Shown here one piece after another: positions 7,564-54,127 of a DNA stretch of 64,000 nt (its first letter is position 1; every line of letters starts with the position of its first letter). The stretch spans positions 1-64,000 of the forward strand of contig JAPLFY010000137.1 of assembly GCA_026390435.1 (NCBI GenBank). The letters are read 5' to 3'. The notes beneath the pieces are model-generated. The model saw nothing but the letters and a program-made list of their open reading frames with translations. It did no database searches and had not been told where the DNA came from. The DNA is from Pseudomonadota bacterium. Lineage in GTDB: Bacteria; Bdellovibrionota_B; Oligoflexia; Oligoflexales; CAIYRB01. The translations under genes and the position numbers were made by a program.

Positions 7564-7703
7564 GGGAATCCTTCCCGTGCTAGATACCGGAACTTTTACG
7601 GTCAGATCAATCGAAGTCTATAATTGGCTTGTGTTTATCTTCTCTATTATCCCGCGTGAGGCAGCAAATGAAAAGACTCAAAAGCATTTAGTGATGATTA
7701 TGA

Positions 7704-8912
7704 TTATTTTTCACCACTTTCAGCGCCACCATCACCAGCCCCACCACCCTCGGGTTGTACTGCGGGTTGAGTCTTGCCCTTCTCCGCAGGAGGCCCCACA
7801 GGCGCAGCCTTAGCCTTGTCAGCAGCTGCTTTTACTGCGGCTGCCTTGTCATTTACCACTTTGTCCGCGGCTGCTTTAGCTGCCTTGCCTAGCATCTCGT
7901 CGCGCTTAGCCGTCGCCTCTTCAGCATCGATCTGGGAGATCAGCAGGAACGCTTTCTCATTCCACCCCTCAGAGGTGAGCTTAGCTCGTCCGGCTCTTGT
8001 TAAGTACTCTTTAGCTTTAGCTAAATTGTGTTTATTTTGATATTCGACTAAACCACAATTAAACAACGCAGCGGAATGCTCTGGTTGTTTTTTCAGCACT
8101 CGATCGCAATTCTCAAGAGCCCCACCCACATCGCCATCCAAACGCTGAATGGAAATCATACCGTAGGAGACGAACCAGTCATTTTCAATCTTACTCAAAA
8201 GCTGCTTCGCCATTGCTATTTCACCACCCTTGAGCGCAGCGAAACCAAGGTTAAGAAGGGATGGTTTATAGCCAGGCACAGCCTTCAAAGCTTCACGGAA
8301 ATAAAGCACTGCCTCTGGGATACGGTCGTCACGCAATGCAACGACTCCCATAGCGTTGTAGGCACCAGCCTTCACGTGCGCAACTTTTGAATCTGTAAGC
8401 TCTTGGAGGAAAAACTCAGCCAATGCAAAGTTTTTTGCCTGCAATGCCCCTAATGCTATTTCAAGCTTCACTTCAGGGCCAATCGTTCTACTTGCGCCCT
8501 TTTCCATCTGCAATTCAGCCAGCTTCTTCGCACTACCTAATATTTCCCCCGGATTTTTGCGGGCTAATCGTTCCGTAGATATCACACCTTGCAGGGCTAG
8601 CTCACCTTTACCATTGCGAAAGCGGGCCAACTCGGACTCTGCCTTAGCCGGCGCAATCGTCTGAGAAGTGAGAGGGTTATTAGCAAGACTGGTAGTAAGA
8701 GTGACGCGTGTAGCCGATGCCGACTCCGGCCCTTCAGCCTCTTTGCCTGTTTCACCACTACTAGTGCGCTCATTGTCGGATTTGCTGGAATTGTCTTTCT
8801 TCTCTGCCGTAGAACAGGCAGACAAGGCGCAAACACCCATCAAGCACAAGTAGTTTTTCCAAACTTTGTGCCCGAGTCCACTAGTCAACGATCTTCTACT
8901 GAGCGTTTGCAT
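7704..8912 (-). CDS. TPR lipoprotein of the Agl/Glt-like operon
   Basis: The start is set at the ATG at 8912, which shares one base with the stop of the upstream gene (TGATG) and has GGGAG upstream; a TTG at 8915 is the alternative. The N-terminus carries a signal with lipobox LSAC. TPR-like helices fill residues about 130-310 (AYNAMGVVALRDDRIPEAVL, PSLLNLGFAALKGG, AALFNCGLVEYQN). The C-terminus is an Ala/Lys-rich tail ending in Gly/Glu. GltE (AglT) of Myxococcus is a comparable TPR protein, but this is only an analogy. Translational coupling to the 1043-residue TPR gene suggests the two are made together. The 140-base gap to the FHA gene holds no other gene. Confidence 0.78.
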   Translation of the reverse strand: MQTLSRRSLTSGLGHKVWKNYLCLMGVCALSACSTAEKKDNSSKSDNERTSSGETGKEAEGPESASATRVTLTTSLANNPLTSQTIAPAKAESELARFRNGKGELALQGVISTERLARKNPGEILGSAKKLAELQMEKGASRTIGPEVKLEIALGALQAKNFALAEFFLQELTDSKVAHVKAGAYNAMGVVALRDDRIPEAVLYFREALKAVPGYKPSLLNLGFAALKGGEIAMAKQLLSKIENDWFVSYGMISIQRLDGDVGGALENCDRVLKKQPEHSAALFNCGLVEYQNKHNLAKAKEYLTRAGRAKLTSEGWNEKAFLLISQIDAEEATAKRDEMLGKAAKAAADKVVNDKAAAVKAAADKAKAAPVGPPAEKGKTQPAVQPEGGGAGDGGAESGEK

Positions 8913-11900
8913 CAATCTCCCTTGCCTTTAACCGCTTGGGCGATGTTCTCTGGAACCTCAGCGCCAATAAAGTCTGGTCTAACGATCAGGTCATCGAAGC
9001 CGATTTTTTTGCCTTGAATACGCGTCGAACCGCTCAGAGCTTTCGCAGCCCACTCATTATAAACAAGATATTTGCTAACGGCGTCCAACGCCTTTTTGTA
9101 GAAGGCTTGTGCTTCAGCACGCGCAGCTTTGGCATCACCCGCTAACTGTTTCACCACATCGGCATGAGGTGCACCTTTAATCTCTGGTGGATTCTCGAGA
9201 TCCCTAGCTAACAACTCGCGGGCAAACCCGAGCTGATAAAATGCAGCAACACCCCAGTAAGCATCTTTTGTCGCAAGGACCTGCTCGTATGCCCCCTGTA
9301 CCTTTGGTAAAGAACCGACTTTTTGCTGAATCGATCCTGCCAGGGCATCGACAGTGCCACCTCTTAGTCGCATTGCTTGGAACTGCGCCATGATGCCATT
9401 GACGCGGCGAAACACTAACCCACCGACTGAGCGCAGCGCCTCGCCGGAAACACTTCCACCAGATTTTTTGAATGTTTCTAGGATTTCATTAGCTGCTTGT
9501 TGGGCCGCCGCACCCCGACTGTTCATCACCGTCGTGTACGCTTGGATACGCTCTTCAGCACTGAGCTTAAATTTACCATCCAGTACTTTCGCCAGCTGCA
9601 GGACCTTAGCTTCTTCTCCAGATGAGAAGGCCGTGCGCTGCATTCTGAATAAGATTACTTTGGCGCTATTCGGATCTACCTGCGCAAACGCTAAGCAGGA
9701 ATTGACTGCACTTTCCGCGTTTAGACCCGCCTCAATTTCGCAACTGTTTGCTAGCGCAGCGGCGGCCTCTTTCTCTTTCGGGTAGCGCTTAGCAAACTCG
9801 TGGAACATCCGAGCTGCAGAAGCCAATTCAAGACGATTTTGATCCAGAATAGCCACCTTCAGAAGGGCCGGCTTAGCACCTTCTGACTTGGGAAACTTTT
9901 CTAGGACGATCATGTAGTCTTTGATAGCTTCACTGACTTTATTACATTTTTCCCAGTCTAGTGCGGCGTTATAGATGAGAGCGTCGCTATCTTTGGCGTT
10001 GGGTTTCTTCTTGAAGAGATCCTCGCCCTTCTTGGCTCTTGAACAAGCATTCTTGTCGCTTTTAACAGCATCTACAGCAAGACCGTGATCTAGGTTTTCT
10101 AGTTTCTCGCCAATCTTACCTTTTTGATAAGCAGGAATCTTGCGGAGCTCAGCAATAATAGCTGCTAACGCCTTTTCATCTTTACCGTAAAGAGGAATCA
10201 AATTCTCTATAGCCTCTTGGCCCTCTTTCTCATTGGGGTACTTCTTTGCCAACATGAGTAAGTATTTTTCGGCCATTTTTTTATCGTTACTGCGGTAAAA
10301 AACCTCAGTCAGGTAAGTGTCACAGTTTTTTACATTCTTTTTTTCATTAGGATAGGACTTCGTGTAGTACTCGCAAGCCTTGACGAAATTTCGCCCATTT
10401 TCTGAAACTGGCTTCGGTCCTTTGGAGAAATCTGGTTTAACTTTAACCAGAACTTTCAACTCAGGTTCAAAGGTCCGGTAGTAAGAATCCAACATATATT
10501 CCGCAGATTGCTTGTGAATATTGGTGGTCTTATTAGTTTTCGAGTCGTAGATCAGGGCTTTATCGTTACCCATTAAACAGATATCGAGATAAAGCTTGCC
10601 AGCTTCTCGGTACTGTTTCGTAAAGTAATAAATATCTGCCATGTTATATTTAATTTCGGCAACTTCACGCGATTTTGGATAATTTTTCAAAAAGAGATTA
10701 TAGCCACGGAGCGCCTCTACATAGCTCCGCTTGTTATCGTCTTTTTGCGCGTTTTTGTGTGTTAACTTGGCGTAGTAAATGATCTGATCTTTAATCGTCT
10801 GCTGGGTCTCGTCGAATAGTTTCTTGTCAGCTTTATGACGATCACCCCAAGGGCTAATAGGACCGAACAGACGCGGATATCGATCGAGCTCAACCCAAAC
10901 ATCATTCACCCTATTAAGCTCAAAGAATAACGCAATGATGCTTTTTTGAGTGTCTGGAACATCATCAGCAAAAGGAGCTACTTGCTGATACCGACGAAGG
11001 ACCTTGATAGCCTCTGCGTATTGCCCTTGATCAGAGAAGGTGTCAGAAAGGAGCAGTAGGAAGCGGCCGATATATTTATCGCCCCCATTCGCTTTGTAAT
11101 AGGCAATCGCTGGCTCAATCTCGCGAAGCTCAGCAAATGCATAAACCATGTCGCGCAGAGCTTCTTCGTTAAGCGCCATGCCCATCTTACCGGACCTTTT
11201 AGCCTCCATGACAGTCTGCTTCCAATAGGCTAGAGACTGCTTGTGCTGGCCTAAGTTATAGCTACACCAACCCAGCTTAAACATGGACCAAGCAAATGAC
11301 TTGGACTGCTTAAAGCGCAGAGCGTTCTTATAGTTATTCATCGCATTGCTGTAGTCGCTTTTATCGAAATAGAAGTCACCCAAGGCGTAATAAGCATCGC
11401 CTGCTTTTTGAGAATTCGGAAAGCGGGTAATTAATTGACTGAAGATTCGCGCCGCTTCTTTATCTCTCTTGAGGACGTTGTAGGCCAAACCAATGTTGAA
11501 CATGGTGACATCGGCATTCTTGCTTTTGGGGTACTCAGCTAGGACATTTAGGGCATCTTTAGCTAGCGTCTGCCACTGACCTTTTGACTGCGATTCATCG
11601 AGTTTAGGCTCTCGTCCCTTGCGTCCGCCATTGTCCCAGGCATCCCAAGCCTTCTCGTACTGATGCATCTCCTGGTTTGTGTAATAGACCGCGCCTTCGA
11701 GGCGAAGATTGACGAGACGGTCTTTCATCTCCAGGCGGGTCGAACTTTTCTTCGGCATGCGCTCCGATTGCGCCGATAGATAATTGGTTGCTTTGGTAAT
11801 TTCAGAAATTAGCCGAGTTTCGGTCGCGACCATGAATGCTTCATTGGCATTCAACTTACTGGACGCCGCTTTTTTGGCGGGCTTCTTTTTGACGGACTGT

Positions 11901-12043
11901 TCTTTTACATCGTTTAAATTAACTTGAGTGGTCTTTTGCGTAGTAGCTAAAACTGTGCCAGCGAGCACGACCATTAAAGGCGCGGCCGCTAGCGTTTTGA
12001 GCATTTTTTGTAGCCATATTCTACGCAAGATTCCCACCCTCAC
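8912..12043 (-). CDS. Large periplasmic TPR protein (1043 aa)
   Basis: A hydrophobic N-terminal segment (TLAAAPLMVVLAGTVLA) looks like a signal peptide. The body is a long array of TPR-type helical hairpins, for example NADVTMFNIGLAYNVLKRD, AGDAYYALGDFYFDKSDYS and EIKYNMADIYYFTKQYREA. Such superhelices are protein-binding scaffolds. Position and size recall the large TPR proteins of the Myxococcus Glt complex (GltI/AgmK), though no direct orthology can be claimed. The annotated start is GTG at 12043; TTG at 12028 with GAGGGTGGG upstream, or ATG at 12004, are alternatives. The stop overlaps the next gene by one base. Confidence 0.78.
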   Translation of the reverse strand: MRVGILRRIWLQKMLKTLAAAPLMVVLAGTVLATTQKTTQVNLNDVKEQSVKKKPAKKAASSKLNANEAFMVATETRLISEITKATNYLSAQSERMPKKSSTRLEMKDRLVNLRLEGAVYYTNQEMHQYEKAWDAWDNGGRKGREPKLDESQSKGQWQTLAKDALNVLAEYPKSKNADVTMFNIGLAYNVLKRDKEAARIFSQLITRFPNSQKAGDAYYALGDFYFDKSDYSNAMNNYKNALRFKQSKSFAWSMFKLGWCSYNLGQHKQSLAYWKQTVMEAKRSGKMGMALNEEALRDMVYAFAELREIEPAIAYYKANGGDKYIGRFLLLLSDTFSDQGQYAEAIKVLRRYQQVAPFADDVPDTQKSIIALFFELNRVNDVWVELDRYPRLFGPISPWGDRHKADKKLFDETQQTIKDQIIYYAKLTHKNAQKDDNKRSYVEALRGYNLFLKNYPKSREVAEIKYNMADIYYFTKQYREAGKLYLDICLMGNDKALIYDSKTNKTTNIHKQSAEYMLDSYYRTFEPELKVLVKVKPDFSKGPKPVSENGRNFVKACEYYTKSYPNEKKNVKNCDTYLTEVFYRSNDKKMAEKYLLMLAKKYPNEKEGQEAIENLIPLYGKDEKALAAIIAELRKIPAYQKGKIGEKLENLDHGLAVDAVKSDKNACSRAKKGEDLFKKKPNAKDSDALIYNAALDWEKCNKVSEAIKDYMIVLEKFPKSEGAKPALLKVAILDQNRLELASAARMFHEFAKRYPKEKEAAAALANSCEIEAGLNAESAVNSCLAFAQVDPNSAKVILFRMQRTAFSSGEEAKVLQLAKVLDGKFKLSAEERIQAYTTVMNSRGAAAQQAANEILETFKKSGGSVSGEALRSVGGLVFRRVNGIMAQFQAMRLRGGTVDALAGSIQQKVGSLPKVQGAYEQVLATKDAYWGVAAFYQLGFARELLARDLENPPEIKGAPHADVVKQLAGDAKAARAEAQAFYKKALDAVSKYLVYNEWAAKALSGSTRIQGKKIGFDDLIVRPDFIGAEVPENIAQAVKGKGD

Positions 12044-12080
12044 TTTTTAGTGGCCGCGACTGGCTAAGCCTTAGGGGCCA

Positions 12081-13667
12081 CTATTTTTCAGCTTTGACTG
12101 CCTTTGCCGCCCCGTTGCCGCCGTTGCCGCCGTCGCCGCCTTTTCCACACAAGCTATCGATGTTGTAGACATAGCCGCCCAGCTCATCTTCCCAGTATTC
12201 TCCCTCGAAGGGCCAATACTCTAGATCTTGCGAGACGTTGAGCTCCTGGAGCCCACCAATGAAGTTGGCTTTTTTATCTGCGGTTCCCACTTTTAGCTGG
12301 GCCCTCAGGGCATCGACTCGACCAAGGACCATCTCTGTATTGATCCCGATAGTCTGATCTGAGAGCTCTTTCAAATAAGCGTAGTAGCCTGTTGCCTTAT
12401 CAAATAACCGCTTACCGGCATCCTTAGTCGCCACTGTCTTTTTATTGCGCAAGAACGTCCCGATGTCGTCCTGGAGTCCCGTCCGCCCCCAAATTGCGCT
12501 GTAACGGCTGAGTCGTGCCAACTCGTTGTCAGCGAATCGGACCGTGGTACCCGCCTCTTTGTAAATATCGGTACGCGACAGAGCGTCTAGTATCGACCAG
12601 GCCCTTTTGTAGTCATTGAGCGATCCGGTTTTATAGTCATAAACTAACTTGAAGAAGCCCTTGGATTCTGATTTATTTTTCTCGATCATCTTCGAAAGAT
12701 CGTCAAACACACCTTTGTAACGAGTCTTAAATCGAGAGAGCGATAACTTTACTTGTTTATAGCGGCACAGTCTGAGGAAGGTAATCGACTGCAGAATATA
12801 GCTCTCTGGGAAGAAGCGATTCTCGAAGAATGGGGAGTGCAGGGTATGAATCGTTCCTAACGTATTGTTGTGCTTTTGCATCATAAAGAAGGCCCAAGCA
12901 GCCTCGAAAAGAGCCTCAAGCCAGTTATCTGAATCGCGAGGAATCTGAGCATAATATTCAATCGCAGAGCGATATCTCTTAACTTCGTAATTGACACGCG
13001 CCATGTTCAGATTGGCTTGCTCCCGAATCCACAAGCCCTCCTCGCCCTTGTCCGCACTAGCTCTGACTTTTTCGAAATAAGAAATTGCTTTGCTATGTGC
13101 GCCACGAAGGTTTGAGATCACTCCCATGTGAAATTGGGCTTTGATCAAGTAGGGTCCGGACGGGACCCGTTGAAAATAGGCGAAAGCTTCTTCAAATTTG
13201 CGCTGATTAAATGATTCGATACCAAGATAGTAGAAATAAAATCCCGCCGCCTGCTGAGGTACCATCGCTGGATCGATACGAGTCTTGAAAAGCTGAACCA
13301 CGTGCGATTGGCCCAGGTTAATCGTCGAGTTGATTTTACCCAGCTCCTCTAGAGCCTTAGTGAAATAAATATTACTAGCGATCGGACCACGTCTTACGAT
13401 GACAGAGTAGTATTTGGATGCTGAATAGTAAAAACCAAGTCTCTCCAAGCTTTGAGCTAGCCCCCATTCGGAACGCTCCTTCTCACCCGGGGCCTTGGGA
13501 TAACCAAAGGCCTGAAAATACGCATTAGCCGCTGAAACGTAATCGCGCCGTGCATAAAAAGCGGTCGCAGCACGGTAATCAGCGAATGCCGGACCGGCCG
13601 CCATCGACAAGGACAGCCCCAAACAGATTATAAATTTAAGTACTTGTCGCACTCTGGCGCTCTCCAC
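12081..13667 (-). CDS. Periplasmic TPR-like protein (528 aa)
   Basis: The N-terminus has a signal peptide (LKFIICLGLSLSMAAGPAFA, cleaved near ADY). Helical repeats of TPR type follow (ATAFYARRDYVSAANAYFQA, EEAFAYFQRVPSGP, IEYYAQIP). The last 20 residues are a Gly/Asn repeat (GGDGGNGGNG) and then Lys/Ala. The start is GTG at 13667, but a GTG at 13652 with GGAGAG upstream is as good or better. The gene lies 37 bases upstream of the 1043-residue TPR gene and 24 bases downstream of the outer-membrane barrel gene, inside the same operon. It probably serves as a periplasmic scaffold of the same machine. Confidence 0.75.
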   Translation of the reverse strand: MESARVRQVLKFIICLGLSLSMAAGPAFADYRAATAFYARRDYVSAANAYFQAFGYPKAPGEKERSEWGLAQSLERLGFYYSASKYYSVIVRRGPIASNIYFTKALEELGKINSTINLGQSHVVQLFKTRIDPAMVPQQAAGFYFYYLGIESFNQRKFEEAFAYFQRVPSGPYLIKAQFHMGVISNLRGAHSKAISYFEKVRASADKGEEGLWIREQANLNMARVNYEVKRYRSAIEYYAQIPRDSDNWLEALFEAAWAFFMMQKHNNTLGTIHTLHSPFFENRFFPESYILQSITFLRLCRYKQVKLSLSRFKTRYKGVFDDLSKMIEKNKSESKGFFKLVYDYKTGSLNDYKRAWSILDALSRTDIYKEAGTTVRFADNELARLSRYSAIWGRTGLQDDIGTFLRNKKTVATKDAGKRLFDKATGYYAYLKELSDQTIGINTEMVLGRVDALRAQLKVGTADKKANFIGGLQELNVSQDLEYWPFEGEYWEDELGGYVYNIDSLCGKGGDGGNGGNGAAKAVKAEK

Positions 13668-13691
13668 TTCCGGAGCTAAATCATGCCGGCG

Positions 13692-14435
13692 CTAAAAAAA
13701 CGTCGACATTCCAAATTGCAGGGTCACGTTCTGTTGAGAATTAGTGCCCTTTGGCACCGTGGGATCACAAGATCCATCAGCTAAATTATATATAAACAGG
13801 TAATCTCGAACATCCCAACGGATCGCAGTATCTTCCGACAAGAAGTACTTTTGCCCAAAGCCGAGTCCGACACCCGGATACCCTTTGGTGGTTGGAGCCG
13901 GCTTGGTTGTATTAGGAGATACGCACTGAGCGTAGTCATAGGAAATACCTGTCATGCCGGCTTCAACGCTTAGAAATGAGTCAAAATAGACCACATCTCC
14001 GCCTGGTAGCTGCGTTTTTCCGTAAATCGGTGTCCAAAGCAGGCCACCAGCCGCGATATAAGCGGTGCGTAGTATCTGAGTACTAATTTGGAAGTCCCGC
14101 TTGAGTAGCGTTTTATCCTGTTTATCTATAGACGCACCGTAGGCTCCATTAATTTCCAAAGCCCACGACTCGCTAAAGTGATAATCCAGCAGGCCGGAGG
14201 CTAGATAGGTATAAATAAACGACTGGTTCATGATAAAAATACCCTGCGCACCTAGCTCAAATCGATTTGATTTGGTCATAAAGCGAGGGCGAATCACTCG
14301 TATTTCGTATCCGTCAAAGCGGTCGTCGGCTGCACTTGCCATCGTCGCGGCCACTACGGTGCTAAAAGCACAGGCCAGGCACATGGACTGTACCATGGCT
14401 CTTACGCGACTAGTTTTTGACTGCACGTTGATCAA
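13692..14435 (-). CDS. Outer-membrane beta-barrel protein
   Basis: The protein has a signal peptide (ACAFSTVVAATMASAA), then about 220 residues with alternating hydrophobic positions and aromatic girdles (FELGAQGIFIMNQSFIYTYL, WALEINGAYGAS). It ends in FGMSTFF, with the terminal Phe typical of barrel insertion signals. About eight strands are likely. The start is TTG at 14435 with GGAG eight bases upstream; GTG at 14426 is possible. In the Myxococcus Glt complex, GltA, GltB and GltH are outer-membrane barrels, and this gene has the matching place between the TolR-like and TPR genes. It is the likely outer-membrane anchor of the complex. Confidence 0.8.
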   Translation of the reverse strand: MINVQSKTSRVRAMVQSMCLACAFSTVVAATMASAADDRFDGYEIRVIRPRFMTKSNRFELGAQGIFIMNQSFIYTYLASGLLDYHFSESWALEINGAYGASIDKQDKTLLKRDFQISTQILRTAYIAAGGLLWTPIYGKTQLPGGDVVYFDSFLSVEAGMTGISYDYAQCVSPNTTKPAPTTKGYPGVGLGFGQKYFLSEDTAIRWDVRDYLFIYNLADGSCDPTVPKGTNSQQNVTLQFGMSTFF

Positions 14436-14462
14436 ACAAGAATCTCCGACTCTGCAAACCCG

Positions 14463-14963
14463 TTACTCACCCTGCCTAGCTACCATCAATTTGAACGTGA
14501 TGTACTCAGCTTGTTGAGCTGCTAGCATGATGCGCTTCATCAGTTTAAAGTTGTGCCCCTGATCCATTTCCATGGTGAGCGTAGACAGCCGAGCCTTATC
14601 AATTTCAGACATTTTACCTGCTAGCGTTCGCTTAGTCGCCTCAGCCATCTTCTGGAGTTCCTGAAAGACAGGGAAGATAGCGCCCTGACTGCGGCTGGCT
14701 TCGTCCACGTCACCACCGACGATAGCAGCAATTTTCTTATCATTGATGATAATTTCAGTTCTCGTGACTTTGATCGTCGGAATCTCATCCAGCGTTGATA
14801 GCGTGATAGACTCTGGCAGTTCAACGCCGTTATTGACGTCGTAACTCACTGGATCGGTCGAATAGCTCATCAGCAAAAATGTGATCAAGATGCTGAAGAT
14901 ATCAAGCATCGGCATCAGATTTAAACTGAGTGTCTCGCCGGAATCTGTGGAAACTCCCGCCAT
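14463..14963 (-). CDS. TolR/ExbD-family stator protein 2
   Basis: This 166-residue protein has one N-terminal membrane helix with the functional Asp: LMPMLDIFSILITFLLM. The periplasmic part follows (VELPESITLSTLDEIPTIKV, EIIINDKK), matching the ExbD/TolR/AglQ-AglS family. The Asp is the proton-carrying residue of this motor class. The ATG follows GAGAGG. It sits 40 bases after the other TolR-like gene, giving one TolQ-like and two TolR-like subunits, the same composition as AglR-AglQ-AglS in Myxococcus. It should form a proton-driven inner-membrane motor with the products of 15597-16280 and 15004-15549. Confidence 0.88.
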   Translation of the reverse strand: MAGVSTDSGETLSLNLMPMLDIFSILITFLLMSYSTDPVSYDVNNGVELPESITLSTLDEIPTIKVTRTEIIINDKKIAAIVGGDVDEASRSQGAIFPVFQELQKMAEATKRTLAGKMSEIDKARLSTLTMEMDQGHNFKLMKRIMLAAQQAEYITFKLMVARQGE

Positions 14964-15003
14964 GCTACCTCTCCATCAAGTCGCCGCCTAGGCCGACCTG
15001 CGT

Positions 15004-15549
15004 CTATCTTAGGATTACACTGGCCATCACAACTTTGGGGAACAAGAATTCTGCAGCGAGCTTTTTTTGAAGCTCACTGGCGCCTGCCGGAACTACAACT
15101 GGATCTGCCGGTGCCCGTACCTTAATTGTATCGAGGACCATGGAGATATCTTTCCAGATCACGTCATCTTCAGTAAAAAGCTGGACCTTATCTGCCTCGG
15201 GGTTGGCGCGACGCAGATCGACAAGAAACTTATGCATGTTCGGCATATCGGCCTTATCAACCTTAAACTCGCGCTTCTGCTCATTAATCGGCGGCTTACT
15301 ATAGGCAGCAATCACTTCGACTTTCGTTTTCTCCATATCGACTTTGATATCGAGGACACGTTCGTCTGCTTTTTTATCCGGAGGGGCCGAAGTCAGAAAT
15401 GGGATTTGAACTTCCAAAATTCCGACTGAGAGAAATACAGCCGACATCAGCAGGAAGGTATTCAAAAGGGAAAAGACGTCGATGAACGGCATGATGTTCA
15501 ATTCGATATCGCGGTATTTAATCTTCTTTGTTTTCTTCTTTTTTGACAT
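15004..15549 (-). CDS. TolR/ExbD-family stator protein 1
   Basis: The N-terminus is Lys-rich (SKKKKTKKIK), then comes a membrane helix with the conserved Asp (IMPFIDVFSLLNTFLLMSAV) and a periplasmic domain (DERVLDIKVDMEKTKVEVIA). This is the TolR/ExbD plan, 181 residues. GGAGGGGG lies just upstream of the ATG. It is the first of two such genes in this operon; the two differ in sequence, so the stator is likely a heteromer as in AglQ/AglS. It probably uses the proton gradient to drive the TonB-like FHA protein encoded at the end of the operon. Confidence 0.88.
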   Translation of the reverse strand: MSKKKKTKKIKYRDIELNIMPFIDVFSLLNTFLLMSAVFLSVGILEVQIPFLTSAPPDKKADERVLDIKVDMEKTKVEVIAAYSKPPINEQKREFKVDKADMPNMHKFLVDLRRANPEADKVQLFTEDDVIWKDISMVLDTIKVRAPADPVVVPAGASELQKKLAAEFLFPKVVMASVILR

Positions 15550-15596
15550 ACATGCCCCCTCCGTCTGACTGACATCCCACCGTAAACAATCAGGGC

Positions 15597-16280
15597 TTAA
15601 TCGGCGCTAGCGCTAGATGACGAGGAACTGCCACCGCCTTTAATTTTCATCTTCCGGGTGTAAAGCAGGTCAATAAGGCGAGCGGAATTCCGGTTAATAT
15701 CGTCGACAATCGCTGACTGTTTCAGAACTAGGATACCGTAAGCCAACAGACAGACCAGCGCCGTGCCAAGACCAAACGACGTCGCAGTCAATGCCTCGGA
15801 GATACCAGCAGCAAGAGCAGTTTGCTTAGCCGAACCGGTCAGCTTTGCCGCAGCACCGAAAGACTTCATCAGACCAAACAAAGTTCCGAGCAATCCGAGC
15901 AGAGTCGCCACGTTGGCCGTCGTACCAAGGAATGGTAATACCTGCGTCAGTTTCGGCATCGCCGTCAGCGTCGCAGTATTTAGTGCGTTTTCGATTTCTT
16001 CCGTTGAATCATTGGCGCGCTTGAGCCCCTCGGACATGACATAGGGCAACAGCTTCGGCCGCGCCTTCTTACATAATCTGATCGCATTCTCGATGGAGTT
16101 GTTCATCACCATTTTCTGCACTGCAGCCATGAAACCCGAGCTGTTAGCTAGGTCGTACTGCAACCAGTAGCGATACGATCGCTCGATGATCAGGCCGATT
16201 GACAGGACGGCTACGAAACTAATGGAGGACATGATTTCATGGCCACCTTGCTCAAACTTTTCAGCAATAAAATCCAACAT
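15597..16280 (-). CDS. TolQ/ExbB/MotA-family proton channel (AglR-like)
   Basis: The frame runs up to 16592, but the ATG at 16280 has GGGAGG seven bases upstream and gives 227 residues, the normal length of the family. The protein has three membrane helices: SSISFVAVLSIGLII near the start, then the conserved pair TQVLPFLGTTANVATLLGLL and GLGTALVCLLAYGILVL. The region GLLGTLFGLMKSF is the family hallmark. The C-terminus is a Ser-rich tail. It is the first gene of the operon and should form the channel of the motor with the two TolR-like proteins. Confidence 0.88.
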   Translation of the reverse strand: MLDFIAEKFEQGGHEIMSSISFVAVLSIGLIIERSYRYWLQYDLANSSGFMAAVQKMVMNNSIENAIRLCKKARPKLLPYVMSEGLKRANDSTEEIENALNTATLTAMPKLTQVLPFLGTTANVATLLGLLGTLFGLMKSFGAAAKLTGSAKQTALAAGISEALTATSFGLGTALVCLLAYGILVLKQSAIVDDINRNSARLIDLLYTRKMKIKGGGSSSSSSASAD

Positions 16281-16672
16281 CGCTTCGCCTCCCAAGTCCC
16301 TTAGGAAATTCCCGGATCGCACCCTAAAAACCTTGCGCTGCTTCAGTTTTGGCTGTTCCAGCTGGTCTATCCAACCCGCCGTCCACCGCCACTGCGTTAG
16401 TGCAGAGGTTAATATTTTGGTTTTATTAAATTTTAGGGAGCTATCCCGGTAGCTGTCAACCCACAGCTCAAGTTTTTTGGGGTAGTAGCTTTCAGATGTG
16501 GGTTGGCTTACAATCAGGAGGTTTAGAAATACTGATTTCAGCTTTTTATGTCGATTTATTGAAGTTCTGCGTTGGGCCAGAAAGAGCAGCAAACAGATTT
16601 AATTTATTGAGTATTAATTTGATTATTGGCAAAAAAGCGAACGCAGCTCGGTAGTATGATGGGAACAAGTTC
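16281..16672. promoter_or_regulatory. Divergent intergenic region between the motor operon and the GHKL-like gene
   Basis: These 392 bases separate the start of the TolQ-like gene (minus) from the GHKL-like gene (plus). The minus frame stays open through most of it, but without a credible start or family-like sequence. The part nearest the plus gene (about 16596-16630) is AT-rich and is the likely place for both promoters. No clean -35/-10 pair with 16-18 base spacing could be assigned. Confidence 0.4.
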
Positions 16673-24495: not shown

Positions 24496-25795
24496 GCGGA
24501 ATAGATTTTGCCTGTTAGGCTGCCTCGTCTGGGTCTTTGGGAATCCTTCCTTGGTTCAGCTTGTGTAGCCTCTCTCCAAACAGCCGAAGCTTGGCATCCA
24601 GGCCTCGCTTTAGCACCAATGGGTCGAGCAAATCACGGTCCGTCTGCAAGCGCTTAGTTTGAAGCTCCGAGAGCTTGCCCGAGTCAAGCAGACGGTCACA
24701 AGGAGTCTTCGGCTTGTCATAAATCTTCCTTAGCCTTCCACCGATGCGGATCTTCTGCGTGAGCTTGAGAACTGGACAAAAGAAGTTCAAAAATGGATTC
24801 CAATAGTTCTGATAAATGTCGTTCATTAAATCGACTAGGTCTTGCTCCTCTATCCGGTGGTAACCAAATAACTGGCGCACGTGAGTATTATTTTTCTGTT
24901 CCACATGGGCTGCGTCGTTCTTTTTGTATGGACGTCTGCGGACGAATTTCACCGGCCCATTCTTTTGGCTTTGCATGTAGCTAACGAGAGATTGGTTGAT
25001 AAACTCGGAGCCGTTGTCGCAGGCAAACCCCACCATTCTGAAGGGCAGACCGCCACGAATCTCGATGATTTTTGCAAGTACGCTAGCAGCGTCTTTGCCC
25101 AGTGTGGCACGATTAGCAGTCCAGCCAGATAATAGGTCGGTTACCGTTAATGAGTTGGCAAATAAACCTTGTAAGGCGTTTCCACAGTGGGCAACCGTGT
25201 CTGCCTCGACCATCCCAGGTCTATCGACGTGTTTATCTATTAGCTCAATTGGGATTTTCGACTTTAGGAAGGCTCCTGCCTTTGTCGCCGATAAACCTCG
25301 GTTGCAGGTGGTCTTAACCGGCTTCAGCAGCCTGTCTATCGTGGACGGACTAACCTCGTGAAGTTTACGCTCATCCTCGGGCGTCACGGCTACTGACTGC
25401 TTGTAGTACGGCAACCAAATTGGGATCGCCACTTTCATCTTAACCGAGCACATATAGTTCATGAGCTTCCACAAAGAGACCAGATGGTGCACGCAGCTAG
25501 GGTCATATTTGGCCTTGGGACCTGGCTTTGAACGTGGTTCGCCGGCCCGTTCCCCTAAGATGCGGATGGCATGCTTCCGGGTGTAGCCACAAACCTGGCA
25601 AAACTCGTCCAGGATCAAGCCTTGCTGCTTTCTGGTGGCATTTTTGTAGCGCATACGAATGGCGGCGAGGTATTGTTTACGAGCCTCGATAGTCACAGTG
25701 AGTCCTTTCACTAAGCGCCGAGAATAGCCGGGAAAAGCTTGGTTCTCGGTGCGGGTTAATGTGATTTATCGAGGCAGCCTACCAAATTATTCCGC
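24496..25795 (-). mobile_element. Insertion sequence of about 1.3 kb with one transposase gene
   Basis: Both ends carry related inverted sequences. At the left are GCGGAATA (24496-24503) and TAGGCTGCCTCG (24516-24527). At the right, read inverted, are GCGGAATA (25788-25795) and TAGGCTGCCTCG (25770-25781). The distance between the two blocks differs by four bases. The left inner repeat covers the last codons of the transposase. I could not find a convincing target-site duplication, so the exact outer borders are uncertain. The element lies between the ABC importer and a gene that appears to have lost its start. Confidence 0.75.
24515..25711 (-). CDS. DDE transposase with integrase catalytic core
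   Basis: The 398-residue protein has an N-terminal helix-turn-helix-like region (LDEFCQVCGYTRKHAIRIL) and a Pro/Lys hinge (PRSKPGPKAKYDP). An rve/integrase core follows, with the acidic triad in MVEADTVAHCG, GFACDNGSEF and AAHVEQKNN (D, D, E). It resembles the integrase-type transposases of several unclassified IS groups. No frameshift or internal stop is seen, so it may be active. The last residues DEAA are encoded by the left inverted repeat. Confidence 0.88.
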   Translation of the reverse strand: MKGLTVTIEARKQYLAAIRMRYKNATRKQQGLILDEFCQVCGYTRKHAIRILGERAGEPRSKPGPKAKYDPSCVHHLVSLWKLMNYMCSVKMKVAIPIWLPYYKQSVAVTPEDERKLHEVSPSTIDRLLKPVKTTCNRGLSATKAGAFLKSKIPIELIDKHVDRPGMVEADTVAHCGNALQGLFANSLTVTDLLSGWTANRATLGKDAASVLAKIIEIRGGLPFRMVGFACDNGSEFINQSLVSYMQSQKNGPVKFVRRRPYKKNDAAHVEQKNNTHVRQLFGYHRIEEQDLVDLMNDIYQNYWNPFLNFFCPVLKLTQKIRIGGRLRKIYDKPKTPCDRLLDSGKLSELQTKRLQTDRDLLDPLVLKRGLDAKLRLFGERLHKLNQGRIPKDPDEAA

Positions 25796-28789: not shown

Positions 28790-30781
28790 TTAGTTAGGGA
28801 CCGGGCTTGTGGCAGCTGAAAACTTACTAACGCTGGCCGCACCCTTTACTAAGTCTTGCTGTAACTGCAGGTCACCCGTCATGATCCCATCTGCCACCAC
28901 CACGTGATGGGACGGGCTATCGTCAGCATCGTCCATGACGAAGTTGTACACTTGTTGGTTTGGAACGACCGGCAGCCGACGCAACTCTTCCAACCGATGG
29001 TACTTGCCGTCGGCTCCAAGTAACTGCTCACCGGGGGCTAAATCTTTGGCGGCCTTGACACCAGTTCGCGTGAGCATTGAGTGCTTAGTCGTCACGTGAA
29101 CCAGTTTGCCCTCGTAGCCAAGTTCAATCATTGGCTCCGCCTCGGGGCCCTTGACCATGCCCTTCAGCTTAGCCGCACGCTTGATAAGTGGGTTGTAGAT
29201 CAGATCGCCAGAGTGGAGTGTATCGATCCGCCGACGCGATCCGTCGGCCATCTGTATTTTGGTTTCTGGCGAAAAGCATCCTTCGTCGCGAAAATTCCCG
29301 TCGTCACAACCGCACCCGCCGCAATCCCACCAGACTGTTCCTGTGCAGTAATTGTAGTGTGGGCCATACGTATTCCACATAACCCAGGAATTTTCCGACC
29401 GTTGGTAACACTGACCCAGATAAAAATAGTTGCTACCCTCGTCCATGGTGTGTTCGCGACATAGAGTCTGACCGATGTTAACTGTAGCCGTGTTGCTACA
29501 TCCTTGCCAGGAGCCAGGCGCCAAACCTGGACCGGTGACACGGCCCCAAATGTCGGCTGTACCATATTGATTACCGGGGCTGAATCCAGCCGCCCAAACA
29601 TTGCCGCCACTTTGCGACGTACCTTGCCAATTACCAACGTGTTGCCACCCCCAGTTACCGGCACCGTTTCTTGCACTGTCGAGGGTGTTAACGGTGTTAT
29701 TGACCGGCATTTCCATTTGAGGCGTGCCAGAAACCATGCCAGATACGCCCATGTAGATTGGGACGGATCCTAGTTCCTGAGTAGCGTAACTGGTAGGACT
29801 AAACCAGCAACTCGGCGGTCTATACGCTGGCACTTGCACAATCCTCTGGGTAGTACCACCTGGTCCCGTGGCGGTGACGAACACCGAGATAAAGCCAACC
29901 GAGTCATTGTAGCCCACATCAGGTGTTTGAAAGTTCACGGTACACGAACTGAGGGAGTAGCCACGCCCACGTATACTTCTGGAGTCCGCCGGTAGAGTTG
30001 GTGTGCAGGCTGCGCCAGGATTATTGGCTGGTACGATGCTGACGCTTGTCATGACGCCAGACCCTTTAAAATAAATCGTCGCAGACTGGCCATATGCTAA
30101 TGGATTGTTGACATTCGGCACACCGGACCACTCAACCTCAGGCTTTGGAGGCGGTGGCACTTCTATTTCTGCCTCCAAATAATTGGCAGAATTTCCGCTC
30201 GTACTCTGCGTCAAGGTGGCCGACGATGCCACACGGATTTTTTCTATCAATGTGCCATTCATAGCAGGGATACTCATCAGCGTCACACGACTGTTGGCAC
30301 TCTGAGCTCCAGCTCCCGTCGTGACCGTGGCGCCAGACTGAAAGGCCTGATCCATACTGGTATCATTCAGTTTTGCGTTATTGAAGCCCTCAACTAGAAT
30401 CCCACCACCTCCGTCTGCGCTCCACCGTGCGTCTGCCGGAGCTGGTTTCATTGCGACTAGCTTCACTTCTGAGGCCGAGCTAAAAATATATGGGTCGGGA
30501 TAAATGCTTGGCACGTAGTTTGGGTTAGTGGCGACTTGCTGGTCGGTAGGGAGCCCACTCGGGAATCGCATGAGTGCCGCCAGTGCGGGAAGATTAGTGG
30601 CATTTGCCTGCTGCGAGGAGTCTCGGCTCCGTTGTACCTGGGATTCTTTCAGACTGCGGTCGCTATTCTCTGCCATGTAAGCAGCGACTCCACCGGCGAC
30701 AGCCACTAACGCCAAGGAGAACACGACCTGAGCGCTGCCTTGTTGCCCTACTAAAAACCGAGTTTTTTTAATTTGCCCCAT
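28790..30781 (-). CDS. Pilin-like anchored protein with a C-terminal Hint (hedgehog/intein) domain
   Basis: The start is taken at the ATG at 30781 (GGGGGT upstream), giving 663 residues. The N-terminus has a basic leader, then QQGSAQVVFSLALVAVAGGV, a hydrophobic helix after a Gly as in prepilins but without Glu at position 5. A long Ser/Gly/Asn-rich exported region follows (about 60-430), then a Cys-rich stretch with CGGCGC. The Hint domain begins at about residue 502: GCFSPETKIQMADG (N-terminal Cys block), LVHVTTKHSML (TxxH block), and VYNFVMDD with HHVVVADGIMTGD. The usual C-terminal His-Asn is missing, so N-terminal thioester chemistry may work without splicing. It is the last gene of a four-gene unit with two prepilin-like proteins. 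Confidence 0.75.
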   Translation of the reverse strand: MGQIKKTRFLVGQQGSAQVVFSLALVAVAGGVAAYMAENSDRSLKESQVQRSRDSSQQANATNLPALAALMRFPSGLPTDQQVATNPNYVPSIYPDPYIFSSASEVKLVAMKPAPADARWSADGGGGILVEGFNNAKLNDTSMDQAFQSGATVTTGAGAQSANSRVTLMSIPAMNGTLIEKIRVASSATLTQSTSGNSANYLEAEIEVPPPPKPEVEWSGVPNVNNPLAYGQSATIYFKGSGVMTSVSIVPANNPGAACTPTLPADSRSIRGRGYSLSSCTVNFQTPDVGYNDSVGFISVFVTATGPGGTTQRIVQVPAYRPPSCWFSPTSYATQELGSVPIYMGVSGMVSGTPQMEMPVNNTVNTLDSARNGAGNWGWQHVGNWQGTSQSGGNVWAAGFSPGNQYGTADIWGRVTGPGLAPGSWQGCSNTATVNIGQTLCREHTMDEGSNYFYLGQCYQRSENSWVMWNTYGPHYNYCTGTVWWDCGGCGCDDGNFRDEGCFSPETKIQMADGSRRRIDTLHSGDLIYNPLIKRAAKLKGMVKGPEAEPMIELGYEGKLVHVTTKHSMLTRTGVKAAKDLAPGEQLLGADGKYHRLEELRRLPVVPNQQVYNFVMDDADDSPSHHVVVADGIMTGDLQLQQDLVKGAASVSKFSAATSPVPN

Positions 30782-30949
30782 GACTGACCCCCACGATGTA
30801 CAATAAGAACATCGGGACATACCGTCCGCAACTTGAGACAATCACGTAACCCCCTGCATTTTTGAACTTATTGCATCAACATTTGAGGGCGGCTTGCAGC
30901 CAATTTTGGAGAGAGCGATCAGAGTCCAAACTTCTGCCCCCTGCGACAC

Positions 30950-31966
30950 TCATCGAACCTGCGGAGGCATGCGGTAGTATCGTTCACCAGGCAAACGTAC
31001 CGGCTGGACTCCCTTGGGTGGCATCGGCGCCTGCGTGGCAGGCTTACTTACCACTTTAGGACATGCTGCGGCTTGATCCTTCATCGACAGAATTAGGCTC
31101 AAATCTGTGGGCGTTGAGGCCACTGGTATTGATGTCACCTTTTGATTTAACTCGCGCACCCGCTGAGCGACGGTCTGCGCCGATCCAGCCGAACCTAACT
31201 CTTTAGCTAACACTGAGGTGATCTTTTTGTAGCCGTTGTCGTCGAATTTGGTACCGACCTGGACATCTGCCGCAGTCGAAGCTAGCAAGACATGCTGGAA
31301 AAAGTAAACTCTATAGGGCGGTTTATAAGCGTTCGAAAGTTTACCGTCCCCAAGCTGACGGGGAGCCATCACCGCCTTATAGGCAGCGTTGATATCTTCA
31401 ACCTTTTTGTTGGCACAAGAGTCGCCCTGACCAGTGTCGCTACAGAGGAATACCCCCACACTTTTAGGGCTTTTGAGCGCAGGGAAATCAAAGGACTGGT
31501 CAAACCCGGCGGCGAGCTTTTCAAACGTGATGGGCTGCGCGATCGGTTTAAATTCGCGATCACCGGGAACTAGAGATTCTAAAGTGAGAAGCAGACGCGC
31601 TCCTGAGTTGGCCACTAGTTCGCCGCGGATCAGATCCAGATCACCCCAATTGCAAGTCTTCTTTATTTTCACATGAACATTGAAATGCGCCCCCTTGCCG
31701 TCAACAATCAGAGGTGTCGGCGTAAAGCCAGCCTCGATCATAGCTTGCTGACGATGAACCACCGCCTCAGTATTAGGGCCGGTGACGCGAGGGGCACTTC
31801 CCTTGGACAGAGATTGCGCTTTGCCAGCCTTGCTATCGACAGCTGCTACAGACTGCTCAGGCGATTGCGACTTCGTCGCTGCATGCTTACGTTTGACGAA
31901 AAATATGACGCCAACCACAGCAATTAGTGCGATCACCGCCAGATACTTTTGGTTTTTCTCGCTCAT
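30950..31966 (-). CDS. Membrane-anchored protein of the pseudopilin-Hint cluster, unknown function
   Basis: The 338-residue protein has one N-terminal membrane helix (YLAVIALIAVVGVIFFV) followed by KRKH, so its bulk faces the periplasm. There is a low-complexity linker to about residue 65. A globular part with several Cys follows (KKTCNWGDLDLI, GVFLCSDTGQGDSCANKK), and the tail is Pro-rich (APMPPKGVQPVRLPGERYY). I recognise no family. The gene lies nine bases after the second prepilin gene and 168 bases before the Hint-protein gene, so it probably belongs to the same assembly. Confidence 0.7.
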   Translation of the reverse strand: MSEKNQKYLAVIALIAVVGVIFFVKRKHAATKSQSPEQSVAAVDSKAGKAQSLSKGSAPRVTGPNTEAVVHRQQAMIEAGFTPTPLIVDGKGAHFNVHVKIKKTCNWGDLDLIRGELVANSGARLLLTLESLVPGDREFKPIAQPITFEKLAAGFDQSFDFPALKSPKSVGVFLCSDTGQGDSCANKKVEDINAAYKAVMAPRQLGDGKLSNAYKPPYRVYFFQHVLLASTAADVQVGTKFDDNGYKKITSVLAKELGSAGSAQTVAQRVRELNQKVTSIPVASTPTDLSLILSMKDQAAACPKVVSKPATQAPMPPKGVQPVRLPGERYYRMPPQVR

Positions 31967-31975
31967 GTCTCACTC

Positions 31976-32635
31976 CTAATGCATAATTTGAATGCCTGCA
32001 GTCGATGCGGTCGGTAGGGTCAGGCTGTGTTTTAAATACTTTATTTGTGAGCGCGACTGCAGGTAGTAAAAATAGATGTTGGCCGATAGCGCCGTGGTCG
32101 TAGTCCGGCGGAAACAAGCCATAGCGCCGACACCGTGATTAGTGACGCTGCCGCCGACCGACTGAGCCAATGCAGGGTAACTTTTCGTGCCCGCGGTGCC
32201 CGGATAAGTCACCTCGATGATCGGTTGTGTGCCAGCGGGACATACAAAACTGCAGTTCGCAAATGCTTGTCCAGTGGTAGGAAAGCTGAGTCCCACAAGT
32301 TTCGCCGGAATTGCCGTACACTTTTGATTGTGAACTACTGTGCCGCTCGGGGACGATGGGACCCTGCAAGTTTGACCGTTGCAGGAGGTCTGCATCAGTC
32401 TGTTGTAGTCGAGCTTTTCGATGTCACGAGTAAAACGAGCAACATACTGATTCAGCTCCCGCTGGGCGTCACGTCTAGCCTCTTCGGCAGATGTATAGCT
32501 AGACATCGACGATGTCACACTGGACACCACGGAGCCAATGATCGCAATGATCCCAACTGCCACGACTAGTTCGACGATGGACATTCCGCTTGATTGAGCC
32601 AATGGTGGCCGTTTGAGTCTACATGCTGGGCGCAT
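31976..32635 (-). CDS. Prepilin-like protein with type IV N-terminal signal
   Basis: The start at 32635 overlaps the upstream gene by 17 bases; ATG at 32647 is the alternative. The leader (RPACRLKRPPLAQSSG) is followed by MSIVELVVAVGIIAIIGSVV: cleavage after Gly, a methylated N-terminal residue, and Glu at position 5 of the mature protein. These are the marks of type IV pilins and pseudopilins processed by a prepilin peptidase. The rest (about 190 residues) has a coiled N-terminal helix (AEEARRDAQRELNQY) and a beta-rich head with Cys pairs. It is likely a minor pilin or a pseudopilin of a secretion system. Confidence 0.85.
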   Translation of the reverse strand: MRPACRLKRPPLAQSSGMSIVELVVAVGIIAIIGSVVSSVTSSMSSYTSAEEARRDAQRELNQYVARFTRDIEKLDYNRLMQTSCNGQTCRVPSSPSGTVVHNQKCTAIPAKLVGLSFPTTGQAFANCSFVCPAGTQPIIEVTYPGTAGTKSYPALAQSVGGSVTNHGVGAMACFRRTTTTALSANIYFYYLQSRSQIKYLKHSLTLPTASTAGIQIMH

Positions 32636-33476
32636 AAAAAGACCCATTTGAGCGTTTGTAAATATTAGGTTTCCCGCGGCTGTACCAGTAAATTGAGTAT
32701 TGGACCTCCACCGACGAGGAGCCAGACTTGTCCGCAACTAAGCACGGTGAGTTACTAATGGGCTGGCATAGTGGGTTACAAGATGCAGGATTAGCGCGAC
32801 AATTGTTGTAGCTATCGCGATTAAACCGATAAGATTGAAATGCATTGTAGGCACTGGCGTATTCACTACAAGTCAGAGGCAGCCCGGAATCCAAATTAAG
32901 CACCCGGGCACGCACCTCGGCAATCGCCTTTGGCGCACCATTGAATGACGTACCCGAGTAGTTGGCGTTGCCTATGCCCGAAAATTCCACACAGAAGTAG
33001 AGATCTTGGCTGCTTGGTAGGGAACGAAATCCCGATGCACACCGCCTCAATGCTGCAACATGCTTGGCCGGAGCATCTGCTGGCCACGCCGCGATTGCGG
33101 TCTTGGTCGAGAACATGACACCGTCGTTGCCAACCTGGCGGTTGACGATTGAGATTGGTGCCCCAGAGCACACCCCTCCTGCGACGGGTTTGAGCATCCT
33201 GTGGACTTCGTCCACTAACATGGTTTGAAACGACGATTCGATATCTTTGTGACTACTACTGGTTTCAACGATGCGGCGAATAAAAGCAGAATTCCGCATC
33301 GACATGGACAGCACGTAAATGAAGATCCCGATAAAAGCGACCATAACTATCGCGCCCACCAAGGTAAACCCTTCACTGCCGCTCAGCGTCTTCGCTCCGA
33401 GTGGCCGCACGGGTTTCAAGTCGCTACTCGCGACTTGCGGTTGATCAGCACGGTTATGTGAACTTATAGAACCCAT
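32619..33476 (-). CDS. Prepilin-like protein lacking Glu5
   Basis: After a long leader (about 35 residues) comes GSEGFTLVGAIVMVAFIGIF, the type IV prepilin pattern with cleavage before FTLVG. Position 5 of the mature protein is Gly instead of the usual Glu. Loss of Glu5 is known from tip pseudopilins of the GspK type, which cap the pilus; by analogy this may be the tip subunit. The head (about 220 residues) has several Cys (VAGGVCSGAP, ALRRCASGF, NPASCNPLCQP). It is the first gene of the unit; ATG at 33476 follows GGGGCGC. Confidence 0.8.
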   Translation of the reverse strand: MGSISSHNRADQPQVASSDLKPVRPLGAKTLSGSEGFTLVGAIVMVAFIGIFIYVLSMSMRNSAFIRRIVETSSSHKDIESSFQTMLVDEVHRMLKPVAGGVCSGAPISIVNRQVGNDGVMFSTKTAIAAWPADAPAKHVAALRRCASGFRSLPSSQDLYFCVEFSGIGNANYSGTSFNGAPKAIAEVRARVLNLDSGLPLTCSEYASAYNAFQSYRFNRDSYNNCRANPASCNPLCQPISNSPCLVADKSGSSSVEVQYSIYWYSRGKPNIYKRSNGSFYAPSM

Positions 33477-51793: not shown

Positions 51794-54112
51794 TTACGCA
51801 ATATCGCGATTGATTTGATCGGCTGCGAGGTTATTACGCGGAGCTCCATACCGCTCACGCAGCAGATCATAGAGGAATTGACGCTGTCCTTTGTTACCAC
51901 CATAAATCTTCAGACCATGCTCGAAGCCAGATCGAATCACCTTTCCCCACCGAACCTCTACGGTAACTCCGTCCATTAATTTTGCTTGGAGTTTCCTATT
52001 TAATTCGGCATCAGATGTGACGATTTTCACAGAAATAAGAGATTTCTGGCCAAACAGCCTGGGACCCGTCACTCGAAACCCAAACATCGAAAGATCCACG
52101 ACCACAAAGGTACCGTATGAGCTAACTAAATTAATCGCGCTTGGATCCTCGACATCTACCGACTTATCAAAGGCGCGAACACCCAATTGATCCAAATGAA
52201 AGGTCTCGGCCACTTTAAGCAAGTGCGGACGCTCGTAAAAGGGGTCACACTCACACGCCTGGACTAGATTGGCATGATGTTTTACCGCGATCGCAATATC
52301 AGAAAAAAGTGCTGGACTAACCCCAGCCTTTACCAACTGGTCACGACACAATTTACTTACTATCATTTTGAACGGACTACAGGCTGTTTGCAGACGGCGA
52401 GCAAAATTAACTCCTGAACCGACCATCGTGAAATCAACAAGGGTCTGTCCCCCGAGATTACCAACGCTAACTTCTGCTGAGTGAATCCCTATTCGAACAG
52501 GCATAATCATCACATCCCGCCCTGCGGCAGCGGCTGAATTAGCCTGTGAAACGGTAAGTTCCTGGATCTTAGACGCAGCTAAGAACGCATTCATTGTATT
52601 TTTTTCAGGTTCATCAGCACCTTCGCTAGCGAAGAAGCACAAAAGTCCGTCGCCCAGCGAGCGATCAACTGCTCCACCGTGCGCCTCGACCACAGAACCT
52701 ATCTGACTAATACGACGAGAAAGCTCATTAAAAACCTTACGTGACGGCAACGGCGCCGAGATTTGGGAGAAGGAAACGATATCCACAAACATAATACAAA
52801 CTTCAGACACCTCACCAAAGTCGTCTACAGACGATCCGGCGGGAACGGCGGGATTACCGTCTCCGGCACTCCTCTTTTTAGTCAGAGATGCAATGATTTT
52901 TTGCCGCTTTTTTTCCAACAACCGTAACCGGATCGCCAATGACGAGGAAAAAACAGCACTTACTATAAGCGCACCAATTTGAAACATATAATTACGAACA
53001 AAAGTTGCCTCGATCCAACCAAACCAGGCGGCATATGTCACAAACCAAGATGAGGAAAAACCAAGAGTCAACATAAAAAACTGCAGTGCCTGCGGATGAC
53101 GCAGATACCTACGCAACACCAACTGCTTCCAAACTAATATGCATGAAGTAATAAAAATTATTACCAAGGTATGCAACTGAGCGTTAACAAATGGGGCAAG
53201 TAATGCCAGTGCCAATACCCCGCCTAATGAGAATCTATCCTGAATCTTCAGAATTCGCAGATGATTACTCATCCGAAAAAACGACTTTTGAAATAAAATT
53301 ACAGCCGCAATTGTAAGGAGAAAAGCCTCCTGTCCAAATAGTAAAAAATGCCCATAATGATGCCCAATCGGCGGGTACAGAAGACCCAATGAGCCAGATA
53401 AAAGCAATGCGACGGCAAGTAAAGATGCGAGAAAAATGCTGTAATATAAAAATATCTTACGTCGAACAAATACAAACAAAAACAGATTAAATAAAACCAT
53501 CCCCAGCGCAGTACCTAGCATCAGACCCAAACACAACTCACGTGTCCTCGAGTACTTGATAAATTCGCTATTAGTCCTTATCTTCAGTGTCGCGGGTGAC
53601 TGCCCAGCAGTCACTGTCTTGACGTAAACATATCGCTCAACTTCTGGCGAAGCCTTAAAGGCAAATGCACTCGTGGTTCCTAAAGAACGACGCTTAGTAT
53701 CGACTCGATCAAATCCGGCCGCCACTTCATCGATCACCCGACCTCGCTCCACCAGGTAAAAATCGACTGATTTATGTAAAATGAATTCCACTTCGGCAAC
53801 AAAATCTGGATCCTGTGCTTGGGTGGAGACCGGAACCGTAACCCTTAACCAGCTATAGACATCATCGGGCCCCGGATAGCGCAGTTTATTACCGTTTTGC
53901 TGACGCCAGAGTTGGGGTGAAAGCTGCAGAACATCTCCAATTTCATCCGCACGAACCATAGACTCGTACTCTGTAACTGGCCATTGCAACCCTTTATCAG
54001 CAGTTGTGGCTGCAAATAAAAAGGCGAGAATCATGGGCAACAAAACAGGAAATGCCGTAGATGCTATAAGAAGTGACTTTTTATTCCTCACTAGAATCAC
54101 ATTCGTCCCCAT
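51794..54112 (-). CDS. 7TMR-DISM receptor with class III cyclase and PilZ-like domains, paralog 1
   Basis: The start is taken at ATG 54112 (AAGG seven bases upstream); GTG at 54118 is the alternative. After a first membrane helix comes a periplasmic 7TMR-DISM extracellular domain (about 45-190), seven membrane helices (about 195-400), a class III nucleotide cyclase domain (about 435-600) and a PilZ-like C-terminus (about 665-765; VVVDLSMFGFRV). Cyclase residues: metal Asp in MFVDIVSFS and in SLGDGLLCFF, and the transition-state Asn and Arg in VGSGVNFARRL. The substrate-binding Lys is replaced by Arg (VDRSLGD). It probably converts ATP to cAMP in response to a periplasmic ligand. A paralog lies nine bases upstream. 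Confidence 0.85.
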   Translation of the reverse strand: MGTNVILVRNKKSLLIASTAFPVLLPMILAFLFAATTADKGLQWPVTEYESMVRADEIGDVLQLSPQLWRQQNGNKLRYPGPDDVYSWLRVTVPVSTQAQDPDFVAEVEFILHKSVDFYLVERGRVIDEVAAGFDRVDTKRRSLGTTSAFAFKASPEVERYVYVKTVTAGQSPATLKIRTNSEFIKYSRTRELCLGLMLGTALGMVLFNLFLFVFVRRKIFLYYSIFLASLLAVALLLSGSLGLLYPPIGHHYGHFLLFGQEAFLLTIAAVILFQKSFFRMSNHLRILKIQDRFSLGGVLALALLAPFVNAQLHTLVIIFITSCILVWKQLVLRRYLRHPQALQFFMLTLGFSSSWFVTYAAWFGWIEATFVRNYMFQIGALIVSAVFSSSLAIRLRLLEKKRQKIIASLTKKRSAGDGNPAVPAGSSVDDFGEVSEVCIMFVDIVSFSQISAPLPSRKVFNELSRRISQIGSVVEAHGGAVDRSLGDGLLCFFASEGADEPEKNTMNAFLAASKIQELTVSQANSAAAAGRDVMIMPVRIGIHSAEVSVGNLGGQTLVDFTMVGSGVNFARRLQTACSPFKMIVSKLCRDQLVKAGVSPALFSDIAIAVKHHANLVQACECDPFYERPHLLKVAETFHLDQLGVRAFDKSVDVEDPSAINLVSSYGTFVVVDLSMFGFRVTGPRLFGQKSLISVKIVTSDAELNRKLQAKLMDGVTVEVRWGKVIRSGFEHGLKIYGGNKGQRQFLYDLLRERYGAPRNNLAADQINRDIA

Positions 54113-54127
54113 TGCCACGCCTTAGAT

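Follow-up and report, generated by a model that had tools for sequence, protein, structure and literature searches.

Why should a protein that begins like a prepilin end in a Hint domain, and what could such a domain do there? This question was raised by a small operon in a 64,000-nucleotide stretch of contig JAPLFY010000137.1 (assembly GCA_026390435.1, Pseudomonadota bacterium), which is called the window here. The preliminary description had placed four minus-strand genes at 28790-33476, and all four were found there. As shown in Table 1, they encode two minor-pilin-like proteins (PILA and PILB), a Hint-associated protein (HAP) and the pilin-Hint protein. The genes of PILA and PILB overlap by 17 bp and those of PILB and HAP are separated by 9 bp, so these three genes look co-transcribed; the gap from HAP to the pilin-Hint gene is 168 bp. 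By reading of the translations, an integrase-type transposase gene was also observed near the operon (24515-25711).

Table 1. Features of the operon in the window (a slash marks the leader boundary).
Feature	Position	Strand	Description
PILA	32619..33476	(-)	minor-pilin-like, 285 aa, ...GSEG/FTLVGAIV, no Glu5
PILB	31976..32635	(-)	minor pilin, 219 aa, ...QSSG/MSIVELVV, Glu5
HAP (Hint-associated protein)	30950..31966	(-)	338 aa, N-terminal membrane helix, predicted periplasmic domain, Cys-rich
Pilin-Hint protein	28790..30781	(-)	663 aa; prepilin-type N-terminus, variable middle, C-terminal Hint domain
Leader MGQIKKTRFLVGQQG/SAQVVF... and long N-terminal helix of the pilin-Hint protein, residues 1-71	30569..30781	(-)	no Glu5
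Fast-diverging head of the pilin-Hint protein, residues 361-490	29312..29701	(-)	from identities of tandem paralogues
Hint domain, residues 502-646	28844..29278	(-)	from profile, fold and conserved residues
Codon of Hint-domain Cys502	29276-29278	(-)	
Further sites of the Hint domain			Thr564/His567 (block B TxxH), Asn613 (block F), Asp637 (GD-L end)

The presence of a Hint domain from residue 502 had been proposed from the sequence at first sight, and it was confirmed by both profile and fold. The single pilin-Hint protein matched the Pfam family Vint at E = 3.5e-4, which is under the Pfam cut-off, and a profile built from 18 homologues reached 2LWY, the structure of a Clostridium bacterial intein-like (BIL) domain, at E = 7e-11. 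The AlphaFold model of residues ~502-646 had a pLDDT of ~90 or more across most of its length. With Foldseek, this model matched intein and BIL structures at E ~1e-7 with a target TM of 0.7-0.87. These results indicated that the Hint domain is real.

Residue conservation was counted over the 44 Hint domains with HAP as a neighbour. Cys1, the Gly preceding it, the His of the TxxH motif, the Glu at Cys+45, the Asn of block F, the Asp in the terminal GD and the Gln downstream of it were all invariant (44/44). The Thr of TxxH was kept in 40 of the 44, and the GD Gly in 43. Because the catalytic residues are kept in all of these HAP-linked relatives (one residue in 40), the active site appears intact, and the Hint domain is very probably active. 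The His-Asn end of inteins and A-type BILs is absent, nearly all homologues having Gly-Asp at this place, and the domain is followed by a tail of about 20 residues only (LQLQQDL...), in which the AlphaFold model predicts a helix (638-645). A splicing intein was ruled out, since there is neither a His-Asn end nor a C-extein. Such conservation is the pattern expected where the N-terminal half-reaction is active and the C-terminal half of an intein is missing.

The product of the third gene had been described simply as a membrane-anchored Cys protein. The anchor and the cysteines were both found, and beyond these the protein represents a family in which C105, C175, C184 and C302 are nearly invariant. 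No relative worth naming was detected in Pfam, NCBIfam, PDB sequences or PDB folds (best fold E = 0.08), and the idea that HAP might be an enzyme or chaperone of known type was dropped for lack of a database relative. In the fetched neighbourhoods, 46 of the 51 HAP copies have a Hint gene at a distance of no more than 3.5 kb; among the other five, two are at contig ends and one has a Hint pair a little less than 4 kb away. At G036:C2, HAP stands alone. The distances among the Hint domains correlated with those among the HAPs (r = 0.67), compared with 0.39 ± 0.05 when the HAPs were shuffled within genomes, and none of 2000 shuffles reached as high a value. This correlation shows joint inheritance and is no proof of contact. 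HAP may serve the head or the pilins instead of the Hint domain, because one relative in genome G032 (L127) keeps HAP without a Hint domain and because of the solitary copy at G036:C2.

The distribution of the genes was compared across the phylum of this bacterium, referred to below as the first phylum. A Hint match, often together with both pilins, was present in 37 of 58 genomes, a count that takes in short, lower-scoring Hint proteins, and HAP was present in 15 of the 58; certain genomes hold 7-12 Hint matches each. The scan of named genomes was made with a narrow alignment and gave 7 loci only. Two of the named relatives are Oligoflexaceae, which places the window in Oligoflexia or close to that class. 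As the same arrangement recurs across many genomes and most HAPs stand beside a Hint gene, the expected conservation of the neighbourhood in relatives was borne out, and a chance gene arrangement was ruled out. Hint genes fetched from a second phylum, which was reached via L092, again adjoin HAP. Their proteins have Sec signals and, in some cases, Dockerin or DUF4215 repeats, and no pilins are adjacent. Because the pairing of HAP and Hint persists there without pilins, we regard Hint plus HAP as the core module and the pilins as one form of its display. The linkage of pilin and Hint in the preliminary description thus holds in that it recurs with two pilin families, and needs amending in that the steadiest companion of the Hint domain is HAP, not the pilins.

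Other Hint carriers were also recorded. One family of the class (f12) has Hint carriers without recognisable HAP, and four first-phylum Hint proteins (L027, L029, L031 and L048) are lipoprotein-like and stand without HAP or pilins. Plasmid and viral scans returned distant Hint proteins only, with no HAP or pilins detected. Related Hint domains, annotated as "Hint domain-containing protein", were observed in a Pseudoalteromonas and a Tistrella plasmid (L161 and L162), and no HAP or pilin match was obtained in their surroundings by the profiles used here. In the tree, the Hint domain of the window falls inside a set that has good support and is made up mainly of domains from the second phylum. 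This grouping may reflect ancient paralogues, and no transfer is claimed; the HAP tree gives no firm deep placement.

The pilin nature of PILA and PILB, which had been taken for prepilins without and with Glu5, was supported by sequence. They have a Gly-ended leader ahead of a hydrophobic helix, by which type IV minor pilins and pseudopilins are recognised. Glu22 of PILB, which corresponds to Glu5, is invariant in 20 family sequences. The Pfam family N_methyl was matched by 15 of the 20 PILB members (best E = 2e-7), with the copy of the window below the limit, and by 6 of the 17 PILA members (best E = 9e-4); PILA homologues adjoin Hint genes. Glu5 is absent from PILA and from the pilin-Hint protein, both of which have the leader and the helix, and certain known minor pilins also lack this residue. 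For the pilin-Hint protein, the AlphaFold model contains a helix at 19-71, the membrane part of which is of low confidence, and the ..G/S.. leader boundary recurs in the homologues.

The prepilin-type signals are predicted from the motif. A strict prepilin rule was positive for 31 of 52 first-phylum Hint proteins compared with 37 of 622 other ORFs, and for 3 of 14 second-phylum Hint proteins, the rule being a crude one that is positive for 6% of other ORFs and detects only 13 of the 50 neighbouring pilin-like genes. By eye, nearly all first-phylum Hint proteins have prepilin-type N-termini, incomplete ones and lipoproteins aside. The genome encodes a prepilin peptidase (PF06750, E = 4e-30) and has 7 T2SSE matches above the cut-off, corresponding to T2SS/T4P-type ATPases. 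No pilus-assembly genes were recognised in the translations of the window, nor was a Tad locus. By the same reading, a cluster resembling that of Agl/Glt gliding motility, with FHA, TPR and ExbB/ExbD-like proteins, was observed at 5416-16592, and two adjoining paralogues that combine a 7TM receptor, a nucleotide cyclase and a PilZ-like end were observed at 51794-56470.

The variable part of the pilin-Hint protein was seen in tandem copies. One contig of genome G005 carries at least two full copies and part of a third. Between the two full copies, the identity was 83-89% in the N-terminal parts, 60% in residues 216-360 and 48% in residues 361-490; their Hint domains were 77% identical. In this tandem array, at L021 (G005:C125, 8601-12852), spacers of 20-23 bp separate the pilin-Hint genes, the ends of which are near-constant while the head differs. 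An 88-aa Hint fragment of G005 was rejected as a decayed copy, since it is cut by the contig end and is probably another tandem copy. By analogy, divergence of the head between a base and a Hint domain that are both conserved would fit a recognition tip. Operons of this type were also found to encode three Hint-less relatives, of which G013 has two (L056 and L057) and G032 has one (L127). Aligned with its counterpart from a genus-mate, the G032 protein ends close to the Hint junction. Both G013 loci are without a HAP neighbour, and the G032 locus retains one. From these three relatives, one of them with HAP, it appears that a Hint-less head can suffice as product and that HAP is not strictly tied to the Hint domain.

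The reading that we favour, with moderate confidence, is a minor-pilin tip complex whose Hint domain would separate the variable head at Gly501-Cys502 via a thioester. PILA, PILB and the pilin-Hint protein would enter the inner membrane via their prepilin-type signals and would be trimmed by prepilin peptidase. All three would come to sit at the tip of a type IV pilus or pseudopilus, where variable recognition would fall to the head of the pilin-Hint protein. The C-terminal Hint domain would fold in the periplasm, where the Gly501-Cys502 peptide bond would be converted into a thioester, with Cys502 as the nucleophile and Thr564/His567 assisting. The head would then be separated from the Hint domain, and it may be released by hydrolysis or joined to a nucleophile by transfer. 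The membrane-anchored HAP would be the dedicated partner of the Hint protein, possibly as a gate, chaperone or acceptor.

A tentative alternative is a hedgehog-like attachment, in which the Gly of the thioester would be moved onto a nucleophile such as a group of HAP, a lipid, peptidoglycan or an amine of a target cell. By what is generally known of hedgehog proteins, their Hog/Hint domain shares with the present one the C-terminal placement, the Gly-Cys-Phe junction and the TxxH motif, but the host protein is unrelated, and here the tail of about 20 residues after the Hint domain offers no region resembling that for sterol recognition. The invariant Gly-Cys and an intact N-terminal half-reaction without the C-terminal half of inteins, as in hedgehog (PMC7765530), argue for attachment, and so does the dedicated, co-inherited partner HAP. 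However, the conserved residues of HAP are Cys, Asp, Glu, Gly, Pro and Leu, without an invariant Lys, Ser or Thr, and an acceptor would be superfluous for plain hydrolysis. It is possible, at the same tentative level, that the locus represents a pilus-borne, bacterial version of hedgehog processing, by which a variable tip would be put onto HAP, an envelope molecule or a contacted cell.

We consider it unlikely that the protein cleaves itself without any pilus, the N-terminal helix merely serving as an anchor and the Hint cleavage shedding a surface protein. Such shedding would suit the second-phylum Hint proteins, with their Sec signals and without pilins, as well as the lipoprotein-like Hint proteins of the first phylum, but it is opposed by the repeated co-location with two pilin families and by L037, a fusion protein that combines a Glu5 pilin of the classical kind with the Hint domain. 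An added C-terminal cleavage at Asp637, which would be an atypical C-terminal residue and would free the short helical tail, seems quite improbable: the Asp at the intein Asn position and the downstream Gln are invariant, but Gly stands (43/44) where inteins have their penultimate His, and the tail seems to be part of the fold in the model. A polymorphic toxin freed by its Hint domain was rejected as highly improbable, since, although a score with PT-HINT of Pfam was also obtained for some of the present Hint domains, the C-terminal Hint domain is followed by the short tail and no further domain, and the upstream head gave no toxin match.

The preferred tip complex was compared with known systems. 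B-type BILs cleave without splicing (PMC4031507, PMC7765530). By their description, the present domain is consistent with them in having the N-terminal motifs of inteins and no block G (His-Asn), whereas here there is a fixed GD-L..Q end and a pilin-like host protein. The Kil/Tad pilus of Myxococcus xanthus has interchangeable tips (PMC12075869). In common with the present locus are a set of three minor pilins, one of them large with an exposed variable domain, and the occurrence of several sets per genome, a likeness of arrangement; a Hint domain is not mentioned in that paper.

An earlier study reported C-type BIL domains from predatory bacteria (Dori-Bachash et al., 2009, cited in PMC2797640 and PMC9185962); according to the passage of PMC9185962 that concerns them, they bear a "putative predator-specific domain 1" (PPS-1). 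By this description, they and the present domain have in common that Hint-type domains occur in predatory, partly related bacteria. Bd2400 of Bdellovibrio bacteriovorus was reportedly given as a C-type BIL gene in the 2009 study. C-type BILs may be of the same Hint type as found here, in which case the domain type is not new, and PPS-1 might even be the equivalent of the N-terminal part of the present protein. A text search of the open-access literature found no paper on a fusion of a Hint or BIL domain with a pilin or pilus. The preliminary description knew of no named system of this make-up; this has to be restricted, as Hint domains of predatory bacteria were described before. The pilin-tip context and HAP, neither of which turned up in the papers searched, appear new.

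The locus would join autoprocessing Hint domains and pilus-tip complexes, for which no earlier link was present in the open-access papers searched, and it suggests that pilus tips, once assembled, may undergo cutting or covalent coupling. With HAP, it adds a partner protein without detectable relative. Little is understood of the Hint domains in predatory-type bacteria, and the locus offers a defined setting in which their function can be studied.
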